NCBI GenBank assembly: GCA_022843585.1 | Contig: JALHNJ010000001.1 | Location: 124,001 to 188,000, forward strand | Direction of reading: 5' to 3' | DNA length: 64,000 nucleotides | From: Chitinophagaceae bacterium | GTDB lineage: Bacteria; Bacteroidota; Bacteroidia; Chitinophagales; Chitinophagaceae | Part shown: positions 10,027 through 64,000 of the stretch, one piece after another | Layout of the letters: each line of letters begins with the position of its first letter | How positions within the stretch are numbered: the first letter of the stretch is position 1 | The notes under the pieces: model-generated | Told to the model about the DNA's origin: nothing | Seen by the model: the letters and a program-made list of their open reading frames with translations, nothing else | Databases searched by the model: none | Position numbers and translations under genes: made by a program

Positions 10027-11622
10027 TTAAGAAATTTGTTGCAGTCTTGCTTCTTCCAAATCTAATTCCCACTCTCTTTCCCGTATCAGCTCTTCACTAT
10101 ATTCTGCTTTATGCCGTAAGTAAGTTAATTCTCTCCGGCGAATATGGATTAACTCCAGTAGCATTTGCCTGTATTGCGGTAAAAAAGAGGCTGATTCCTG
10201 TTCCTCATCCCCTTCGAGTTTTCGTTTGGTGATCTCGATCATTCTTTCATAACGATCTCTTACCCGTTTATAGGTATCATTATTTTGTGTTTCTTCCGGG
10301 TAATTGGTATCTAAATAGGAAAGAACAGATTCTGCTAATCGTATCCGTAAGGAAAGTGTCTTTAATTGTTCATCTTCTTTATTGCCTTCTTCAATATTCA
10401 GTATTCGTATCAATGGTTTTAGACTAAGCCCCTGCAATACCAGTGTAATAAGTATAACGACAAAAGTGATAAATAGAATAAGGTTACGATGTGGAAATGC
10501 CTGCCCGGCTAATGTAAGTGGTATAGCTAATGCAGACGCTAATGATACTACACCCCGCATACCACTCCAGGCAATCAAAAATACTTGCTTCCAACCCGGC
10601 TTGGGTTCTGTAGTACGTATACTCCTAAACAACCATCGGGGAATATAAGCTCCCGGAAAAACCCAGATGATACGAACTAAAATGGTAACGATACTGATTA
10701 TTACACCATAGCCAATGGCTTCCCATACAGAATAGTTTCCCAGTCCTTTTACAATACCCGGTAGTTGCAAACCAATCAGTATAAATACAAATCCATTTAA
10801 TAAAAAGATTAGCGTATCCCAAAGACCTGCAATTTGTATGCGGGATTCAGAATTAAAAATTTCATGCGAACGATAGGTAAGAAATAATCCTCCGCTTACA
10901 ACAGCCAGCACACCAGAGTAATGAAAATGTTCTGCTCCTACATACATGGCGTAGGGTGTTATTAATGTAAGACCCGCATCAATACTGGCAGTAGTAGGAA
11001 AGAAACGGTGAATGATATAAACGATATATGCAATTGCCACCCCAATTACTATACCCATACCAGCTACCAGGGCAAATTGACGGGTGGCATCCCACATGCC
11101 AAACTGCCCGGTTATAATAGCAGCTAATGCAAATCGAAATACAATCAAACTGGATGCATCATTCACCAGGCTCTCTCCTTCTAAAATTGTAACTACTCTT
11201 TTCGGCACTTTTAATCCTTGTAAGACAGAGGTAGCTGCAACAGCATCGGGCGGAGAAATAATACCGCCCAGTAAAAATCCAAATGCCAAAGAAAAATCTG
11301 GAATGATAGCATGGGACACTACAGCAACAGCCGCTGAGGTAAATATCACTAGACCAAAAGCAAGTAAACTAATGGGCCGGCGTAATTTCCAAAAATCTTT
11401 CCACGAGGTATTCCATGCTGCTGCATATAATATCGGCGGAAGAAAAATCAGGAAGACCAGATCAGGTTCTAATGAAATAGAGGGCATACCCGGTATCAGG
11501 CTTATTACCAATCCGCTGATAACTAATAAAATCGGGTACGACATTTTGAGTTTCTCACTCAACATGGTCAGCATCGCAATGCCGAACAATAACGATATTA
11601 CTACTAAGAGTTGCTCATGCAT
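10027..11622 (-). CDS. Na+/H+ antiporter (CPA1 family)
   Basis: FLPPILYAAAWNTSW, SPPDAVAATSVLQGLKVPKRVVTILEGESLVNDASSL, WSGMRGVVSLASALAIP. Confidence 0.95.
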   Translation of the reverse strand: MHEQLLVVISLLFGIAMLTMLSEKLKMSYPILLVISGLVISLIPGMPSISLEPDLVFLIFLPPILYAAAWNTSWKDFWKLRRPISLLAFGLVIFTSAAVAVVSHAIIPDFSLAFGFLLGGIISPPDAVAATSVLQGLKVPKRVVTILEGESLVNDASSLIVFRFALAAIITGQFGMWDATRQFALVAGMGIVIGVAIAYIVYIIHRFFPTTASIDAGLTLITPYAMYVGAEHFHYSGVLAVVSGGLFLTYRSHEIFNSESRIQIAGLWDTLIFLLNGFVFILIGLQLPGIVKGLGNYSVWEAIGYGVIISIVTILVRIIWVFPGAYIPRWLFRSIRTTEPKPGWKQVFLIAWSGMRGVVSLASALAIPLTLAGQAFPHRNLILFITFVVILITLVLQGLSLKPLIRILNIEEGNKEDEQLKTLSLRIRLAESVLSYLDTNYPEETQNNDTYKRVRDRYERMIEITKRKLEGDEEQESASFLPQYRQMLLELIHIRRRELTYLRHKAEYSEELIREREWELDLEEARLQQIS

Positions 11623-29428: not shown

Positions 29429-29857
29429 AATAAATAGTGTTTGGTTAAAACGGTGGATTAACAATATAATATTTATTTACATTAATTACAAAAAAATTTA
29501 GTAAGCTAGCATCTTACTGTCAAAAGAAGCAGCAAATTATTTCTATCATTATATAGGAGTCTGAAAATCTTGAAAATCATTAATTAAGAATCTCATTAAA
29601 CTCTCATCAAAAAAAAATCTGCAAGTTTTTCCACATTCATTAAACCTGCTGGTATAGTGTTTGTCTATTCTTCACAGTTATAGCATTGCGGATAGTTTAT
29701 CCGGCCATAATCGTTTAACCACCACAAAAGATTCTGTCTATTATTTATAATAACAGATTCTTCTATTTTACCAAATAATAGAAAAGCAACATTGTATGTA
29801 GCAGGGTTATGTCCTGTTCATAATAAATATTTATTTCTAAAACAAAAACAATTAGCT

Positions 29858-30493
29858 ATGAAGACGATTCAAAAAACTTTTGCCATTGTAGTGGCAACAT
29901 TAACGACCACAATTACTTTTGGACAGCCAGGTCTTGGAGTAACATCAACTACACAGGCAGCAACAAAAGCTACCGTTAATACGATGGCTGTAACGCAAGC
30001 AACAAATGCAGTAACCACTGCAACAAAAGCTACAGTAAATACAACTGTAACAAAAGTAGCTGACATTAAAGCCGCTACTGGCGTAGCAGTAAAAACTTCC
30101 AGACAAAATGCTGTAAGTACAGTAAACAATGTAAAGAGTGATGTGAAAAACAAGGCCCATGTAAATGCTGGTGTAGGTGTACAAACGAGTAACAATACGC
30201 AGGCAGCAACAGGTGCTACACAAGCAAATTCTTCAACAAATGCGAATGCAGATGTTGCAGTAGATATAAGTGCCGCTAAAGTGATTGAGAAAGCAGAAGC
30301 AACTTCAGCAAAAGTTACTACGGCTGCAGAAAACAAAGTAGCATCAACAGTAGAAAAAACAAAATCTGTAAAAACGAAAGCCGTAACAGAAGTAAAATCA
30401 ACTGCAGAGGTGGCAAAGCAAACTGCTTCTTCCGCTAAAACAGTTGAAGCAGATGTAAAAGCGGAAACAAAAACAACTGTTACAAAGCAGTAA
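29858..30493 (+). CDS. Secreted Ala/Thr/Val/Lys-rich low-complexity (LEA-like) protein
   Basis: ATG at 29858: MKTIQKTFAIVVATLTTTITFGQ signal, then repeated TKATVNT and KxxEKxxA segments. Confidence 0.7.
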   Translation: MKTIQKTFAIVVATLTTTITFGQPGLGVTSTTQAATKATVNTMAVTQATNAVTTATKATVNTTVTKVADIKAATGVAVKTSRQNAVSTVNNVKSDVKNKAHVNAGVGVQTSNNTQAATGATQANSSTNANADVAVDISAAKVIEKAEATSAKVTTAAENKVASTVEKTKSVKTKAVTEVKSTAEVAKQTASSAKTVEADVKAETKTTVTKQ

Positions 30494-30517
30494 AATAATC
30501 CGTAGACTTCCATATAC

Positions 30518-56271: not shown

Positions 56272-57306
56272 TTAAGAAGCCTGCATTTCTTTTATTTTCT
56301 CCCTGATCTTTCCTTCTATTTCGTTGGCCAGCTCAGGATTATCAACCATCAATTGTTTTACTGAATCCCGGCCCTGCCCTAATTTGTCGTTATTATAGCT
56401 GTACCAGCTACCACTTTTCTGAACGATTCCCAATTCTGTACCCATATCCACTATTTCACCCGTTTTAGAAATACCTTCTCCAAAAATGATATCAAACTCA
56501 GCGGCACGGAAGGGAGGTGCCACCTTATTCTTTACCACTTTTACTTTTACGTGGTTGCCTATTGCTTCATCTCCATCTTTTACCTGCGTCATTCTACGGA
56601 TATCCAAACGAACAGAAGCATAAAACTTCAATGCATTACCACCGGTAGTTGTTTCGGGATTACCAAACATCACCCCTATCTTTTCACGAAGCTGGTTGAT
56701 GAAAATACAAATGGTATTTGTTTTAGAAATTGTGGCGGTCAATTTTCTTAATGCCTGGCTCATCAATCTTGCATGCAATCCCATTTTGCTGTCACCCATT
56801 TCACCTTCCAGTTCACTTTTAGGAACGAGTGCTGCCACAGAGTCGATCACCACTACATCCAATGCACCCGAAAGAATCAAACGGTCTGCAATTTCAAGGG
56901 CTTGTTCACCATAATCAGGTTGTGATATTAAAAGATTGTCAACATCAACACCGAGTTTCTTAGCATACGAGCTATCAAAAGCATGTTCAGCATCTATAAA
57001 AGCACACATGCCTCCTTTCTTTTGTGCTTCGGCTATTACATGTGTAGCGATGGTTGTTTTACCAGAAGATTCTGGTCCATATATTTCAATGACCCGTCCT
57101 CTTGGAAGTCCACCAATACCAAGCGCAACATCTAAACCGATAGAACCGGTAGAAATTACCTCTTGCATAGTTTCGGCTTTATCGCCCAGCATCATTACGC
57201 TGCCTTTGCCGTAGTCCTTTTCCAGCTTATCCATTGTAAGCTTAAGGGCTTTAAATTTTTCACTGTTGTTGCCAGTAGTTTCGGGTGTTTTGTCTGCTTT
57301 TGCCAT
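56272..57306 (-). CDS. recA: Recombinase A
   Basis: [78 protein letters not shown]. Confidence 0.99.
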
Positions 57307-57568: not shown

Positions 57569-60500
57569 ATGATAATAAAGAGGCTATATGGCATTTGTTT
57601 ATTGCTGCTGTTGTATAATATTAATTTATTTGGACAGCAGCCGAAGTTGGTGTTGCCATTTGTTCATTCAAATACTATTTATTCCACAAAATTTAGCCCG
57701 AATGGAAAATTAATAGTCACATCGTCTGCAGACTTCACTTCAAAAATATGGGATGTTGCAACAGGCAAAATGCTCTCTACTTTAGCAGGGCATTTAAGAG
57801 GAGTTACTTATTCAGAATTCAGTCCCGACGGAAAAAAGGTTGTTAGTTCGTCACAAGATCGTACAGCTAAAATATGGGATGTAGCCTCAGGTTCGTTATT
57901 ATTTAATTTAACCGGACATTTGAAAGGGATAAACTCAGTTCAATTCAGTGCTGACGGGAAAATGATTGCTACATCTTCTGATGATAGTACTGCCAAAGTA
58001 TGGGATGCCCTTACAGGAAGATTACTCTTTAAACTGAAAGGACACTATGCTGCCATCAATTCTGCTTATTTCAATTCAGGGGCTAATAAAATAGTCACCT
58101 CATCTGCAGATCTCAGTACCAGAGTTTGGGATGCTCAAACAGGTGATTTACTCCTCTTGTTGACCGGTCATAAGGGTGAGGTTACTTCTGCACGGTTCAG
58201 TCCTGATGGGAAAACGATAATCACATCATCTAAGGATCACACGGCTAAACTTTGGGACGCCGAAACCGGGGCTTTACTTTTTGAACTAACAGGTCATAAC
58301 AAGCAAGTTAATTCTGCTTTGTTTAGTCCTGACGGAAAAAAAATAATAACAACTTCATCTGATAGCACGGCAAAATTGTGGGACAGCTTCGGTCGGTTGA
58401 TACATACATTTAAAATACAAGAACCCGAAATTCTGTTTGCCCAGTTCAGTCTTGATAGTAAGAAACTAACCACTGCTGCCCGGTATTCTGCACAGATATG
58501 GGATCTCCAAAACGGGAAATTGATAAGCGACTTGGAGTCTCAAAGTGGTTATGCTTCATTCAGCCCAGACAGTAAAAAAGTTCTGACTCTTTCCGGAAAA
58601 ATTTTCGATGCTGCAACAGGTAAGTTTCTTGGCGGTATTAGCGGATGGGTTTCTCCATGGATATATTCAATAGATTTCAGTCCCGATGTTCAAAAAATGG
58701 CCCTCATTTATGAGCAGCGACACTTAAAAATTAGAAATGTGAATGATGGGAATTTGCTTGTTGATTTAACGGCGAAAGGAAAATTACTTTTTAGTACAAA
58801 CGAGTTGATTAACTCAAGTTGCAAAATAAAATTCAGTGCGGATAGTAAAAAATTTGCTACCGCTAATAATGCCAAGGCAGTCAGAATTTGGGAAATCGGC
58901 AGTGGAAAGCTGATCGCTGAACTGGGTGGGCATATCTCAAATGTTAGCTTTGTACAGTTTAGCCATGATGGTAATAGAATCATTACGGCTGACACGTATA
59001 ATAGCCGAGTATGGGACATTAGAACTGGTAATTTGATTTGTAAAGCCGTGCATTCCGAAAAAATAAGCACCGCAATCTTCAGTTCCGACGACAAAAAAAT
59101 CATTACAGCCTTATGGAACGGTACTTTTGAATTACTTGATGCAACAAATGGAAAAAATCTATTGACATTCGAAGGCTACCGTCCCCAGTTCAGTTCGGAT
59201 GGTAGCAGAATTATTTGTGCATCTCAAGAAAATACGATTAGGTTATGGGATTCCAACACCGGAAAATTGTTATACGAATCTCAGAAATATGAAGGGAGAT
59301 TCAATCAATTTAGCCCAGACGGTAAGAAATTCATCACCGTACTTTCAGGAGAAATGGCAAAAGTAGATACGGCAAAGCTTTGGGACGTTGCTACCGGGAC
59401 TTCGATTGCAACCCTTGAAGGCTTGGTTATTTACCCGTACTCTTCTCAGTTCAGCCCGGATAGCAGGAAATTTATCGCTGCCTCCGATCACAATTCCACT
59501 AAAATATGGGATGCGAACACAGGCAGTTTAATTGAGGATCTAAAAGGACATACTAATATTATCATGTCAGCAAGATTCAGCGCTGATGCAAAAAAAGTAT
59601 TCTCTACATCTGGCGATGGCCTTTCTAAAGTATGGGATACTGAAAATGGCAAATTGCTTTACACATTTGCTGAAATTAATAATAACGAATATTTCATTCA
59701 AACTGCCAGGGGCTATTATAAACGCAACAAAGAATCGGCCAGGCTGTTGTATTATATTACAAAAGATCTAAAGATAATCGGCTTCGAGCAACTCGATGTT
59801 AAATACAACCGACCCGACAAAGTACTCGAAGCAATCGGTAATACCGACACAGCATTAATAAAGTCTTATCGCAAAGCCTGGGAAAAAAGAATTAAGAAAT
59901 TGGGCATTGATACCACATCATTCAGAGAGGGGTATAGCGTACCCGAAGCCGATTTTACAAACAGAGATGTAATTGAGTATGAACAAAAAACTGGAATACT
60001 AAAACTTCTAATCAAAGGGAATGATAGTACATATAAATTGGATCGTTTTAATGTTTGGGTAAATGAAACTCCCATCTTTGGTCAACGGGGAATTAATATT
60101 CGTAAAAGAGATAAGAATGATTTTGACACCACTATCACCATCAAACTTTCACAAGAAGAAAATAGAATTGAAACGTCCATCACCAATGTGAACGGAACAG
60201 AAAGTTACCGGATGCCGCTAACAGTAAATTATTCTCCGGCAGTTAAACAAAAAGAATCAGTTCGCTTTATCGGTATTGGTATAGACCAGTTTGCAGAAAG
60301 CCAGTACAACTTACAGTATAGTGCCAAAGACATCAGGGACTTATCGAAAAAACTGAAAGAGAAATATAAGGATGATATTATTATTGATACTTTGTTCAAT
60401 GAAAATGTAACCACCAGCAATGTAAAAGCATTAAAACAAAAACTGCTTCAAACAACCGAAAATGATAAAGTAATTGTTGCTTATTCAGGTCATGGAATGT

Positions 60501-61042
60501 TGAGTAAAGAATATGATTATTATCTATCGACCTATGCTGTGAACTTTGAGAACCCAGAGCAAAATGGATTACCCTATGATGAACTGGAAAATTTGCTGGA
60601 TAGTATTCCCGCCAGAAAAAAACTGATGCTGATTGACGCCTGCCACAGTGGTGAAGTTGATAAAGAAGATTTAATTACACTTACGGCCAGTTCTGATTCA
60701 TTAATAAAAGGATTTAAACCCGTGGTCTATAAAAAAGACGAAAAGCATCTCGGTTTAAAAAACAGTTTTGAGTTAATGCAAAGCCTTTTTGTAAATGTTG
60801 GAAAGAGTACCGGTGCAATAATTATCTCTGCGGCAGCAGGAACACAATTTGCTTTGGAAAGAAATGATTTGAAGAACGGTGTATTTACATATTCAATCCT
60901 GGAAGCGATGAATAAATACCCAACAATGAAAATAGGTGAATTGAAAAAAACGGTTGGTGAAAGAGTAGAGCAATTAACCAAAGGATTACAGAAGCCAACA
61001 TCAAGAAATGAAACTATTGCGGTGGATTGGAATTTATGGTAA
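57569..61042 (+). CDS. Exported WD40-repeat / caspase-like (peptidase C14) protein, copy 1
   Basis: Signal peptide MIIKRLYGICLLLLLYNINLFGQ; about 16 repeats ending in (K/R)(I/V/L)WDxxTG; linker FEQLDVKYNRPDKVLEAIG; caspase-like fold with VIVAYSGHGM and LMLIDACHSGEVDKE. Confidence 0.93.
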   Translation: MIIKRLYGICLLLLLYNINLFGQQPKLVLPFVHSNTIYSTKFSPNGKLIVTSSADFTSKIWDVATGKMLSTLAGHLRGVTYSEFSPDGKKVVSSSQDRTAKIWDVASGSLLFNLTGHLKGINSVQFSADGKMIATSSDDSTAKVWDALTGRLLFKLKGHYAAINSAYFNSGANKIVTSSADLSTRVWDAQTGDLLLLLTGHKGEVTSARFSPDGKTIITSSKDHTAKLWDAETGALLFELTGHNKQVNSALFSPDGKKIITTSSDSTAKLWDSFGRLIHTFKIQEPEILFAQFSLDSKKLTTAARYSAQIWDLQNGKLISDLESQSGYASFSPDSKKVLTLSGKIFDAATGKFLGGISGWVSPWIYSIDFSPDVQKMALIYEQRHLKIRNVNDGNLLVDLTAKGKLLFSTNELINSSCKIKFSADSKKFATANNAKAVRIWEIGSGKLIAELGGHISNVSFVQFSHDGNRIITADTYNSRVWDIRTGNLICKAVHSEKISTAIFSSDDKKIITALWNGTFELLDATNGKNLLTFEGYRPQFSSDGSRIICASQENTIRLWDSNTGKLLYESQKYEGRFNQFSPDGKKFITVLSGEMAKVDTAKLWDVATGTSIATLEGLVIYPYSSQFSPDSRKFIAASDHNSTKIWDANTGSLIEDLKGHTNIIMSARFSADAKKVFSTSGDGLSKVWDTENGKLLYTFAEINNNEYFIQTARGYYKRNKESARLLYYITKDLKIIGFEQLDVKYNRPDKVLEAIGNTDTALIKSYRKAWEKRIKKLGIDTTSFREGYSVPEADFTNRDVIEYEQKTGILKLLIKGNDSTYKLDRFNVWVNETPIFGQRGINIRKRDKNDFDTTITIKLSQEENRIETSITNVNGTESYRMPLTVNYSPAVKQKESVRFIGIGIDQFAESQYNLQYSAKDIRDLSKKLKEKYKDDIIIDTLFNENVTTSNVKALKQKLLQTTENDKVIVAYSGHGMLSKEYDYYLSTYAVNFENPEQNGLPYDELENLLDSIPARKKLMLIDACHSGEVDKEDLITLTASSDSLIKGFKPVVYKKDEKHLGLKNSFELMQSLFVNVGKSTGAIIISAAAGTQFALERNDLKNGVFTYSILEAMNKYPTMKIGELKKTVGERVEQLTKGLQKPTSRNETIAVDWNLW

Positions 61043-61106
61043 TCGTTTTCAAATTAATCTATTATTATTTGGGGCTGGGTACAACATCAGGCCATTATTC
61101 TACCAC

Positions 61107-64000
61107 ATGAAAAAAATATATTTATACATAGCGGTTCTTTTCTTGTTTTCAATCCGTGGGATTACACAGGATACAAAGTTGATACTGCCAGCTGCCCAGG
61201 GAATTAATATCAGATCGGCCAGTTTTAGTCCGGATGCGAAGTTTTTTGTTACTACCCAGGATAAAACGATAAAATTCTGGGAAGTACTCACGGGCAAGGT
61301 TGCTAAAAATATTGAACATAAAACAGATTACGCTATATATAGTCATAACGGCAAGTATATCCTAACTGATAATGGGCAAGTATGGGATGTTGAAAATGGA
61401 ACAATTATATTTTCAACCGATGAAGATGGTTGCGACTTTAGTAAAGATGATAATTTCTTATTAACTACGAAGGGGAATAAAATAAATATTCATGAAATAA
61501 AGACAGGGTTGGTTAACCAGATTGAATTGGCTGGTGCTGGCCCTAAAATATGGGCGTTTTTTACCCCGGATGGAAAAAATATACTTGCATGGACCAATAC
61601 TAAAGTAGAGGTTTGGAATATAAGCCAAAAGAAGCGGGTTGCTTCTTTTAAAGAAAACCACTATGTCAGGTGGGCTTCGTTTAGCCCAGATGGTTTACAT
61701 ATTATTACAAGTACGGTTGACAGTGTACTAAAAATCAGGGATGCCGCTACAGGCAATTTGCTAAAAGAGTTAAAAGGCCATTCTGGAATTGTTGCTACAG
61801 TTTCGTATAGCCCTGATGGATTGAGTATAGTATCAGCATCATACGATAATACAATAAAGATATGGGATGCTAAATCCGGGAAAATAAGATTTACGATTCC
61901 GGCGCATAGCGATAGAGTTAATTCGGCGTTTTATAGTACTGATGGCAAATGGATTATTACTTCTTCCTGGGATAAATCGGTTAAAATTTGGGAAAGTGCT
62001 ACTGGTAAATTATATGGGCACTATATGGGCAGTATTAATCTTATTACTACCGCTATTTACAATGGTAGCGGAGATCAAATGGCGATACTTACTGATAGCA
62101 GTATTAAACTATGCAATACTGCTAACATGGAGATTACAAAATCGCTTAATGAAGGTAAAGGCTATCGGCAACAAGTGGAGTTTAGTGCAGATGGAAAATT
62201 CCTTATTACAAAAGGCGCAGTATCCTATTCACCACATCTCTGGAATCTATCTTCCGGAAAAATAACAAATGTTATACCCTTTAATGATTGGATTAGTAGT
62301 CTAAAATATAGTGCAGATGGAAAATATATTGCAGCCTCTGTCGTATCCACTAAGCCAGTTCAAATATGGAATGTGCAAAATAGCACTAAAGCAATGGAAC
62401 TTAAAACCACAAAAAGTGCAAACACGGTGGCTTTTGATAAAAATAGTAATGTGTTGTATCTCGCCGGTGAAGAAATTTTTCTGGCTGATATTCAAAATCG
62501 CAACTATTTTAAAAAATATACATCAATTAAAGACAGTACAATCCATACACTACAATATAGTACCGACTTTCAATTTATATTTATTGCATCAAAAAACGCC
62601 GCAGCAGTTATTGATGCAGCAAGAGATTCTGTACTTATAGTTTTTGACAATCCATTAGTAAATTATGAAACAGCAACTTTTAGCCAGGATAGGCTTTTAG
62701 TAAAAGCTGGCGATTCTCTTGAAATAAGCAACACAACAGATGGTACGCTGCTTCATAAAATCGCCTTTAATAATTCAATGCTTTACAAAACGAGTCTTAC
62801 TCCAGATAAAAAATTTATAATGAGTGCGGGATTTGATAATTCTTTAAAGTTTTGGGATATAAGCACTGGGAAACTCGCCTGGTCCTATTTTGTACTGTTC
62901 AACACAGATTTTTTTACCTTACTGAATAGCCAATCTGGGGTAGGATATTACTATGGCACAAAGAATGCTGTAAAGGAATTGTCATTTGAAGTAAACGGGA
63001 TACGTTACCCATTCGAACAGCTCGATGTAAAATATAACCGACCCGACAAAGTACTGGAAGCGATTGGTAGTACTGATACAGCTTTAATCAAAAGTTATCG
63101 AAGAGCATGGGAAAAAAGAATAAAAAAGCTGGGTATTGATACAGCGGCTTTTAGCGAAAGCTATAGTGTATTGGAAGCAGACTTTGCTAATAGAGAGACC
63201 ATACAGTATGAACAAAAAGGCAACAGGTTAAAATTGCATATCAAAGGATTTGATAGTACTTATAAACTAGATCGTTTTAATGTTTGGTTAAACGAAGTTC
63301 CTGTGTTTGGTCAACGGGGAATTAGCATCCGGAAGAATAATAAAAATAGTATTGATACTATCATTACAGTTAAGTTATCTGAAGGCAAGAACCAATTAGA
63401 AACTTCTATTACAGATGTTAATGGTACAGAGAGTTATCGGTTGCCATTGAGAGTGAACTACACACCAGTCGTTAAATCGAAAGAAAAACTTTATTTTATC
63501 GGCATTGGTATTGACAAATTTGTAGAAAGCAAATACAATTTGCAATATAGTGCCAAAGACATCAGAGACCTATCTAAAAAGCTAAAGGAAAAATATGGTA
63601 ACAATATCATCATAGATACATTGTTCAACGAGAATGTTACTGTAAAAAATGTAAAAGCATTTAAAAGAAAGCTGCAACAAACTACTGAGAACGATAAAGT
63701 AATTGTGGCCTACTCCGGGCATGGTTTGTTGAGTAAGGAATACGATTATTATCTTTCTACTTACCCAGTCAATTTTGAAAGCCCGGAACAACATGGTTTA
63801 CCATATGATGAATTGGAAAATTTACTCGATAGTATTCCTGCCAGAAAAAAATTGATGCTAATTGATGCCTGCCACAGCGGAGAAGTGGATAAAGAAGACC
63901 TTGTTACATTAAATGCAAGCTCTGACTCGTTAATAAAGGGACTAAAACCGGTCGCTTATAAAAAGGAAGGAAGCCTTGGTTTAAAAAATAGCTTTGAATT
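61107..64000 (+). CDS. Exported WD40-repeat / caspase-like (peptidase C14) protein, copy 2, 3' truncated by window edge
   Basis: Hand translation from ATG 61107 is open to the end: MKKIYLYIAVLFLFSIRGITQDTKLILPAAQ...; about 14 propeller repeats; FEQLDVKYNRPDKVLEAIGSTDTALIKSY...; VIVAYSGHGLLSKEYDYYLSTYPVNF...LMLIDACHSGEVDKEDL. Missing from the ORF track. Confidence 0.92.
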   Translation, partial: MKKIYLYIAVLFLFSIRGITQDTKLILPAAQGINIRSASFSPDAKFFVTTQDKTIKFWEVLTGKVAKNIEHKTDYAIYSHNGKYILTDNGQVWDVENGTIIFSTDEDGCDFSKDDNFLLTTKGNKINIHEIKTGLVNQIELAGAGPKIWAFFTPDGKNILAWTNTKVEVWNISQKKRVASFKENHYVRWASFSPDGLHIITSTVDSVLKIRDAATGNLLKELKGHSGIVATVSYSPDGLSIVSASYDNTIKIWDAKSGKIRFTIPAHSDRVNSAFYSTDGKWIITSSWDKSVKIWESATGKLYGHYMGSINLITTAIYNGSGDQMAILTDSSIKLCNTANMEITKSLNEGKGYRQQVEFSADGKFLITKGAVSYSPHLWNLSSGKITNVIPFNDWISSLKYSADGKYIAASVVSTKPVQIWNVQNSTKAMELKTTKSANTVAFDKNSNVLYLAGEEIFLADIQNRNYFKKYTSIKDSTIHTLQYSTDFQFIFIASKNAAAVIDAARDSVLIVFDNPLVNYETATFSQDRLLVKAGDSLEISNTTDGTLLHKIAFNNSMLYKTSLTPDKKFIMSAGFDNSLKFWDISTGKLAWSYFVLFNTDFFTLLNSQSGVGYYYGTKNAVKELSFEVNGIRYPFEQLDVKYNRPDKVLEAIGSTDTALIKSYRRAWEKRIKKLGIDTAAFSESYSVLEADFANRETIQYEQKGNRLKLHIKGFDSTYKLDRFNVWLNEVPVFGQRGISIRKNNKNSIDTIITVKLSEGKNQLETSITDVNGTESYRLPLRVNYTPVVKSKEKLYFIGIGIDKFVESKYNLQYSAKDIRDLSKKLKEKYGNNIIIDTLFNENVTVKNVKAFKRKLQQTTENDKVIVAYSGHGLLSKEYDYYLSTYPVNFESPEQHGLPYDELENLLDSIPARKKLMLIDACHSGEVDKEDLVTLNASSDSLIKGLKPVAYKKEGSLGLKNSFE

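Follow-up and report, generated by a model that had tools for sequence, protein, structure and literature searches.

Caspase homologs are widespread in bacteria, and their roles are mostly unknown. In bacterial metacaspases, WD40 is the most frequent accompanying Pfam domain (10.9%) (PMC3501461), orthocaspases cut after basic residues (PMC6426788), and caspase effectors and WD40 sensors have been found in bacterial conflict systems (PMC7159879, PMC9218822). The window analyzed here, by which we mean the whole 64,000-nt stretch of Chitinophagaceae DNA, ends in two tandem genes that carry both domains. The family to which they belong offers a compact system for asking what bacterial caspase homologs sense.

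Architecture and predicted export of the tandem pair

A first-pass annotation of the window had proposed an adjacent, co-directional pair of genes sharing one architecture and separated by 64 nt, which is confirmed by the open reading frames and the Pfam matches. The gap of 64 nt runs from the stop codon of copy 1 to the ATG of copy 2, and each copy consists of a signal peptide, a WD40 region, a linker with a β-sandwich, and a caspase domain (Table 1). The conserved stretch opens with FEQLDVKYNRPDK at 59783 in copy 1 and 63012 in copy 2, within one base of the junction annotated earlier (about 59784 and 63013), and all motifs quoted in that annotation are present. Further copies or partner genes had been considered possible to the right; extension of the assembly beyond the window instead reached a PAP2-like membrane gene on the opposite strand, with neither a third copy nor a substrate gene to the right of copy 2. 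Elsewhere in the window, long open frames overlap on opposite strands (29792-30493, +, and 29869-30513, −) in a low-complexity stretch rich in Ala, Thr, and Val, and likely only one of them is a gene.

Table 1. Positions of the features discussed, in window coordinates unless a locus is named
Feature	Position	Strand	Basis or detail
recA, left flank of the array spot in congeners	56272..57306	−	
Copy 1, exported WD40-caspase, 1157 aa (export predicted)	57569..61042	+	ORF, ATG 57569; Pfam WD40 and Peptidase_C14
Copy 1 predicted signal peptide (MIIKRLYGICLLLLLYNINLFG)	57569..57631	+	Sequence; modeled hydrophobic helix 2-20; similar N-termini in relatives
Copy 1 variable region, ~14-16 WD40 blades of ~42 aa, residues ~26-720	57644..59728	+	Modeled β-propellers
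Copy 1 start of constant half, helical linker and β-sandwich	59783..60259	+	Identity profile; structure models
Copy 1 caspase (Peptidase_C14) domain	60266..61039	+	
Copy 1 catalytic residues	His975 60491-60493; Cys1025 60641-60643; Asp1023 60635-60637	+	
Copy 2, exported WD40-caspase, 1053 aa (export predicted)	61107..64000, final 268 nt beyond window; L017:4105-7269	+	ORF, ATG 61107
Copy 2 variable WD40 region	61170..63011	+	
Copy 2 constant half	63012..64000	+	Caspase from 63495; His872 63720-63722, Cys922 63870-63872
GLCYYWYYYCDGYGYCYWYKYWYYC-block small protein	L019:2761-3144	−	
GLCYYWYYYCDGYGYCYWYKYWYYC-block protein elsewhere	L118:1997-2380, L120:6435-6845, L120:11967-12356, L171:4959-5348, L173:3929-4318, L174:14769-15176, L175:6131-6520, L176:12163-12546		
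TGYEYKWNL-type family	L137:13802-14251, L138:1997-2437, L054:5180-5668, L174:16898-17338		

The Peptidase_C14 profile matches the two copies at 72.3 and 71.1 bits (cut-off 21.4), and the match reaches 226 of the 233 profile positions; the C-terminal part of the domain is of low confidence in both structure models. An alignment of 44 members shows no variation at His975, Cys1025, or Asp1023. Loss of proteolytic competence, considered in the first-pass annotation, is thus not suggested by the sequences, in which the catalytic dyad is retained throughout. In metacaspases, an Asp two residues before the catalytic Cys predicts specificity for Arg or Lys, and the residue in this position is Asp in all 44 members. 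A family profile searched against solved structures found Arabidopsis metacaspase 4 (E 3e-8) with the dyad aligned; a direct search of solved structures with a single sequence gave no useful match.

The full model (mean pLDDT 75.5) begins with a helix at residues 2-20, followed by propeller strands at ~26-720, a helical linker, a β-sandwich at ~793-888, and the caspase domain from ~898. It matches a Nostoc repeat propeller and Apaf-1, in both cases via the propellers only. A model of the constant half (pLDDT 82, pTM 0.83, with low confidence in the C-terminal part of the caspase) is structurally similar to GSU0716, MALT1, and metacaspases, although the TM-scores are modest. The linker and β-sandwich stretch of copy 1 is matched by none of the Pfam families shown, nor does an immunoglobulin-like domain appear among them before the p20 unit, where the β-sandwich is modeled. 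The signal peptide, propellers, linker, β-sandwich, and caspase fill the whole chain, and there is no NTPase domain. A signal-peptide-like N-terminus is found in 47 of 49 members by a hydrophobicity heuristic, which suggests that the protein is exported past the inner membrane.

The recA spot, a second island, and genomic context

The genome that contains the window (G000) has 16 C14 matches. Congeners have from 0 to 18, and most genomes of 2 Mb or less have none. Among 42 congeners, 10 carry the WD40-caspase subfamily, as do 40 genomes in a sample of 399 from the taxonomic family, a patchy distribution rather than the single conserved orthologs in all relatives that the earlier annotation had weighed. 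A tandem pair of the subfamily, 51 nt apart, also occurs in Solitalea longa (Sphingobacteriaceae by taxonomy).

The pair in the window is placed between recA and the PAP2-like gene. This spot is empty, with recA directly beside the PAP2-like gene, in G129, G137, G132, G160, and G139, and coordinates suggest that the two are direct neighbors in five further congeners as well. Family members occupy the spot or its recA side in G122 (one copy), G120 (two), G148 (two or more complete copies plus a fragment), and G146 and G151 (one or more in each, at contig ends). Family copies at the spot thus number 1 to 3 or more in six genomes and from 0 to at least 3 overall. In G133, G152, and G143, the spot holds other WD40/caspase-type genes of ~1310 aa, joined in two of the three by a caspase gene of 821 aa, and a similar WD40/caspase-type gene lies beside recA in G131. 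With occupants this varied, the recA-PAP2 interval (L141, L142, L143, L155) resembles a site where caspase genes in general become inserted. In G120, both tandem copies are frame-broken at the same place in identical DNA (L127:7690-7730 and 11060-11100); a misassembled repeat is the probable cause, although the copies might share a mutation, and the breaks are not used as evidence.

When neighboring genes within 6 kb were clustered, those at the recA spot were the syntenic recA, uvrB, and PAP2-side genes, with no partner gene, and those around family members elsewhere were other caspase genes. One such setting is a second caspase island (G000:C1 ~1062000-1090000; L018, L019), which has seven C14 matches, is syntenic in G122 and G120, and holds TPR-caspases, two small exported proteins, and a broken WD40-caspase copy, c3, whose propeller is frameshifted and in which an in-frame stop codon precedes the catalytic Cys.

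Set between caspase genes of the second island is a small exported protein of 127-136 aa, rich in Tyr, Trp, and Cys, that has a conserved C-terminal block such as GLCYYWYYYCDGYGYCYWYKYWYYC. It matches no Pfam or NCBIfam model. Of the 42 congeners, 6 encode it, and each of these belongs to the 10 that carry WD40-caspases (hypergeometric 4e-5, uncorrected for kinship); it is also found in the three genomes with the closest effectors in a 299-genome sample. A basic residue, Arg in most copies, directly precedes the block in nearly all of them. The protein is a candidate substrate or secreted peptide. Four genomes, S. longa among them, encode another small exported protein family close to caspase genes; its members are 146-162 aa long and have C-termini resembling TGYEYKWNL.

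No ligand, substrate, or defense partner gene was found at the recA spot. Searches of 50,697 phage records returned no match and plasmids gave distant matches only, and there is therefore no link to mobile defense islands. PADLOC reported no named anti-phage system, giving only weak single-protein matches ("caspase," 33-40 bits). A diversity-generating retroelement was ruled out, as the window's own assembly has no match to the reverse transcriptase profile RVT_1. A role in defense or cell death would, given the signal peptides, lie outside the cytoplasm, unlike that of the known cytoplasmic caspase effectors.

Divergent propellers on a constant, locally homogenized protease

Between copies 1 and 2, the propeller regions are 31% identical in amino acid sequence with 240 gapped columns, and sliding-window identity rises abruptly at the junction with the effector region. 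Both the strong divergence of the propellers and the non-uniform identity along the length had been expected from the first reading of the locus. The effector regions had also been called nearly the same, which is apt for the protein (84.7% identity) but not for the DNA (77% identity, with saturated synonymous sites). Along the effector, the linker and β-sandwich are ~70-75% identical, and the caspase domain reaches 90-98%.

Between the two copies, synonymous differences per site (pS) have reached saturation in both the propeller (0.767) and the effector (0.771) and lie at 0.76-0.79 in every part; the corresponding nonsynonymous differences are 0.469 and 0.093. With pS saturated in both halves, the likeness of the two effectors reflects purifying selection with no recent conversion, and recent gene conversion between these two copies is ruled out. 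The same saturation means that a dN/dS above 1 cannot be shown for the propeller. Birth of new propellers by recent blade amplification is likewise ruled out for copies 1 and 2, given the low blade-versus-blade nucleotide identities (median 39% and maximum 65% in copy 1; 31% and 48% in copy 2).

Genes at the same spot in congeners extend the pattern. The single G122 gene is 92.3% identical to copy 1 in the effector and 41.6% in the propeller, with 128 gapped columns, and the first G120 gene is 92.0% and 26.1% identical, respectively. As controls, the island member c4 compared between G000 and G122 gives 86.8% in the effector and 81.5% in the propeller with 1 gapped column, and a TPR-bearing island member gives 94.3% and 86.8%. 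Single-copy members in three further genomes have effectors 86-88% and propellers 65-81% identical, with 3-10 gapped columns. Because island and single-copy members keep both halves, strong decoupling of the halves is not general to the protein. The suggestion of duplication with a diverging sensing half on a constant protease thus emerges stronger than first stated, with same-spot congener genes carrying unlike propellers on a 92% identical effector. Effector pS between copy 1 and the G122 gene is 0.68 compared with 0.50-0.58 for the island controls, and because it exceeds the controls, the same-spot genes of G000 and G122 may be old paralogs rather than orthologs.

Gene conversion of the effector half, the other option raised at first reading, is not supported for the window pair and is well supported by the sequences of tandem neighbors in several relatives, mainly in the caspase domain. 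Caspase pS is 0.11-0.63 in homogenized tandem arrays and 0.69-0.85 between dispersed paralogs of one genome, and the per-genome difference is significant when G088 and G120 are left out (one-sided Mann-Whitney p 0.006). Tandem neighbors with saturated propellers have a caspase pS of 0.56 in G148, 0.45-0.55 in G124, 0.55 in G375, and 0.63 in Solitalea, and G120 has values of 0.24 and 0.60 against 0.75. In G088, where contigs break within the identical stretch, pS drops from 0.82 in the propeller to 0.64 across the linker and sandwich and 0.11-0.20 in the caspase, and the low synonymous divergence spans ~290 codons. In G375, the linker and sandwich parts of neighbors are 33% identical and the caspases 85%. 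Little or no caspase homogenization is seen in the window pair (0.76) and in G283 (0.71). Some of these relatives are metagenome assemblies. A third-position change-point test also flags a control pair of dispersed genes (G069), as conserved residues raise third-position identity, and pS was relied on instead.

The two halves also give conflicting trees. The propeller of G124_t2 falls beside those of G000_c4 and G122_isl1 with a support of 100, and the propellers reject a clade of the G124 array (p-AU 5e-38). The caspase tree instead unites the G124 array including G124_t2 (98/95), and here it is the grouping with G000_c4 and G122_isl1 that is rejected (p-AU 5e-5). The p values err on the optimistic side, as the groups were picked after pairwise identities had been viewed and one tree was a quick one with long branches. 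A milder conflict of this kind involves the broken copy c3, whose caspase part gives p-AU 0.066. Array homogenization of the caspase and the tree conflict show recombination and not only loose constraint.

Interpretation and comparison with known systems

The evolutionary description can be given with high confidence: the propeller is the faster-changing or exchanged half on a constant protease, and the caspase is homogenized in arrays. Immune and self-recognition gene families are known for this kind of pattern, in which binding halves stay apart while cutting halves are copied, and a constant, partly neighbor-copied protease attached to a binding half that diverges at the same spot points to recognition of changing partners. 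We favor, with moderate confidence, an exported sensor-protease repertoire that evolves like a recognition gene family; for a recognition role as such, our confidence stops just short of even. The protein would be secreted across the inner membrane and its WD40 propellers would engage a ligand that is either extracellular or located in the envelope. Binding would be relayed through the helical linker and β-sandwich to the C-terminal caspase, of the orthocaspase/metacaspase kind, which upon activation would cut a target, probably after Lys or Arg. Changes in the propeller, as the ligand sensor, may track shifts in its ligands, whether these are non-self proteins, proteins of phages or competitors, or kin markers, and the outcome may be damage to the invader or to the own cell. 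More tentatively, the tandem arrays beside recA could be an envelope-facing generator of new specificities in which conversion keeps the caspase uniform and leaves propellers free to be swapped or to diversify, opposite to the scheme of the fungal hnwd genes, where the WD repeats are the homogenized part.

Unlike propellers could also be left behind by ancient duplications and differential loss on a tolerant WD40 scaffold under loose constraint, with no arms race or special mechanism. The window pair, saturated at synonymous sites in propeller and effector alike, fits such a history, as do the raised effector pS of the same-spot genes (0.68, above controls) and the dispersed paralogs elsewhere, whose propellers are also only 24-37% identical. 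However, same-subfamily genes of similar effector divergence keep 65-82% propeller identity, and the caspase-only homogenization and tree conflict in arrays indicate recombination; we regard old paralogy with loose constraint as rather unlikely to account for the pattern.

It is improbable, in our estimation, that the family consists of processing proteases that mature exported peptides or envelope proteins of their own cell, with propeller diversity reflecting different clients. An example client would be the GLCYYWYYYCDGYGYCYWYKYWYYC-block protein, cut after the conserved Arg before its C-terminal block, and both its confinement to WD40-caspase carriers and the basic residue just before the block accord with this. 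Yet that protein is absent from the recA spot and, in G075 and G151, has no caspase gene near it on the contigs examined, and replacement of propellers in place is not explained by client processing. The scenario we rate lowest, and consider very improbable, is a cytoplasmic abortive-infection effector with the propeller as phage sensor: conflict systems do use caspase effectors and WD40 sensors (PMC7159879, PMC9218822) and PADLOC gives its weak "caspase" match, but signal peptides occur in both copies and nearly all relatives, and the operon lacks a STAND NTPase, an adaptor, or a partner gene. Taken as a whole, the interpretation in the first-pass annotation is partly supported.

In searchable open-access papers, we did not encounter arrays of exported WD40-caspases that combine homogenized caspases with exchanged propellers. 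The proteins resemble bacterial orthocaspases and metacaspases (PMC3501461, PMC6426788) in the p20 caspase fold, the His/Cys dyad, and the DxCHSG motif, and differ from known ones in having an N-terminal WD40 region, a C-terminal caspase, a signal peptide, and exchange between halves in arrays. Like MALT1 paracaspase, one of the top-ranking folds recovered with the constant half, they have a β-sandwich beside the caspase domain; the TM-score is ~0.4 by query length, however, the domain order differs, and no immunoglobulin Pfam match was seen. The full-model fold search recalls the Apaf-1 apoptosome, in which two WD40 propellers also act upstream of a caspase, although in animals these are separate proteins with a nucleotide-binding oligomerization domain, and the likeness is in the propellers only.

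Closer in their evolution are the fungal hnwd genes (het-d, het-e, het-r; PMC1805685, PMC2873952), paralogs with a variable WD40 recognition region, a constant effector, and recombination between members. There, however, near-identical WD repeats are homogenized within STAND proteins, whereas here the blades are unlike each other, the protease is homogenized, and no NTPase domain is present. The cyanobacterial WRAP propellers on STAND, TIR, and caspase proteins (PMC9218822) likewise tie a WD40 propeller with rapid turnover to caspase or TIR effectors; their blades are nearly identical and recently amplified, whereas the best blade pair here is 65% identical in nucleotides and there is no STAND domain. 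An extracytoplasmic location, if true, would separate the present family from the known caspase-based defenses.
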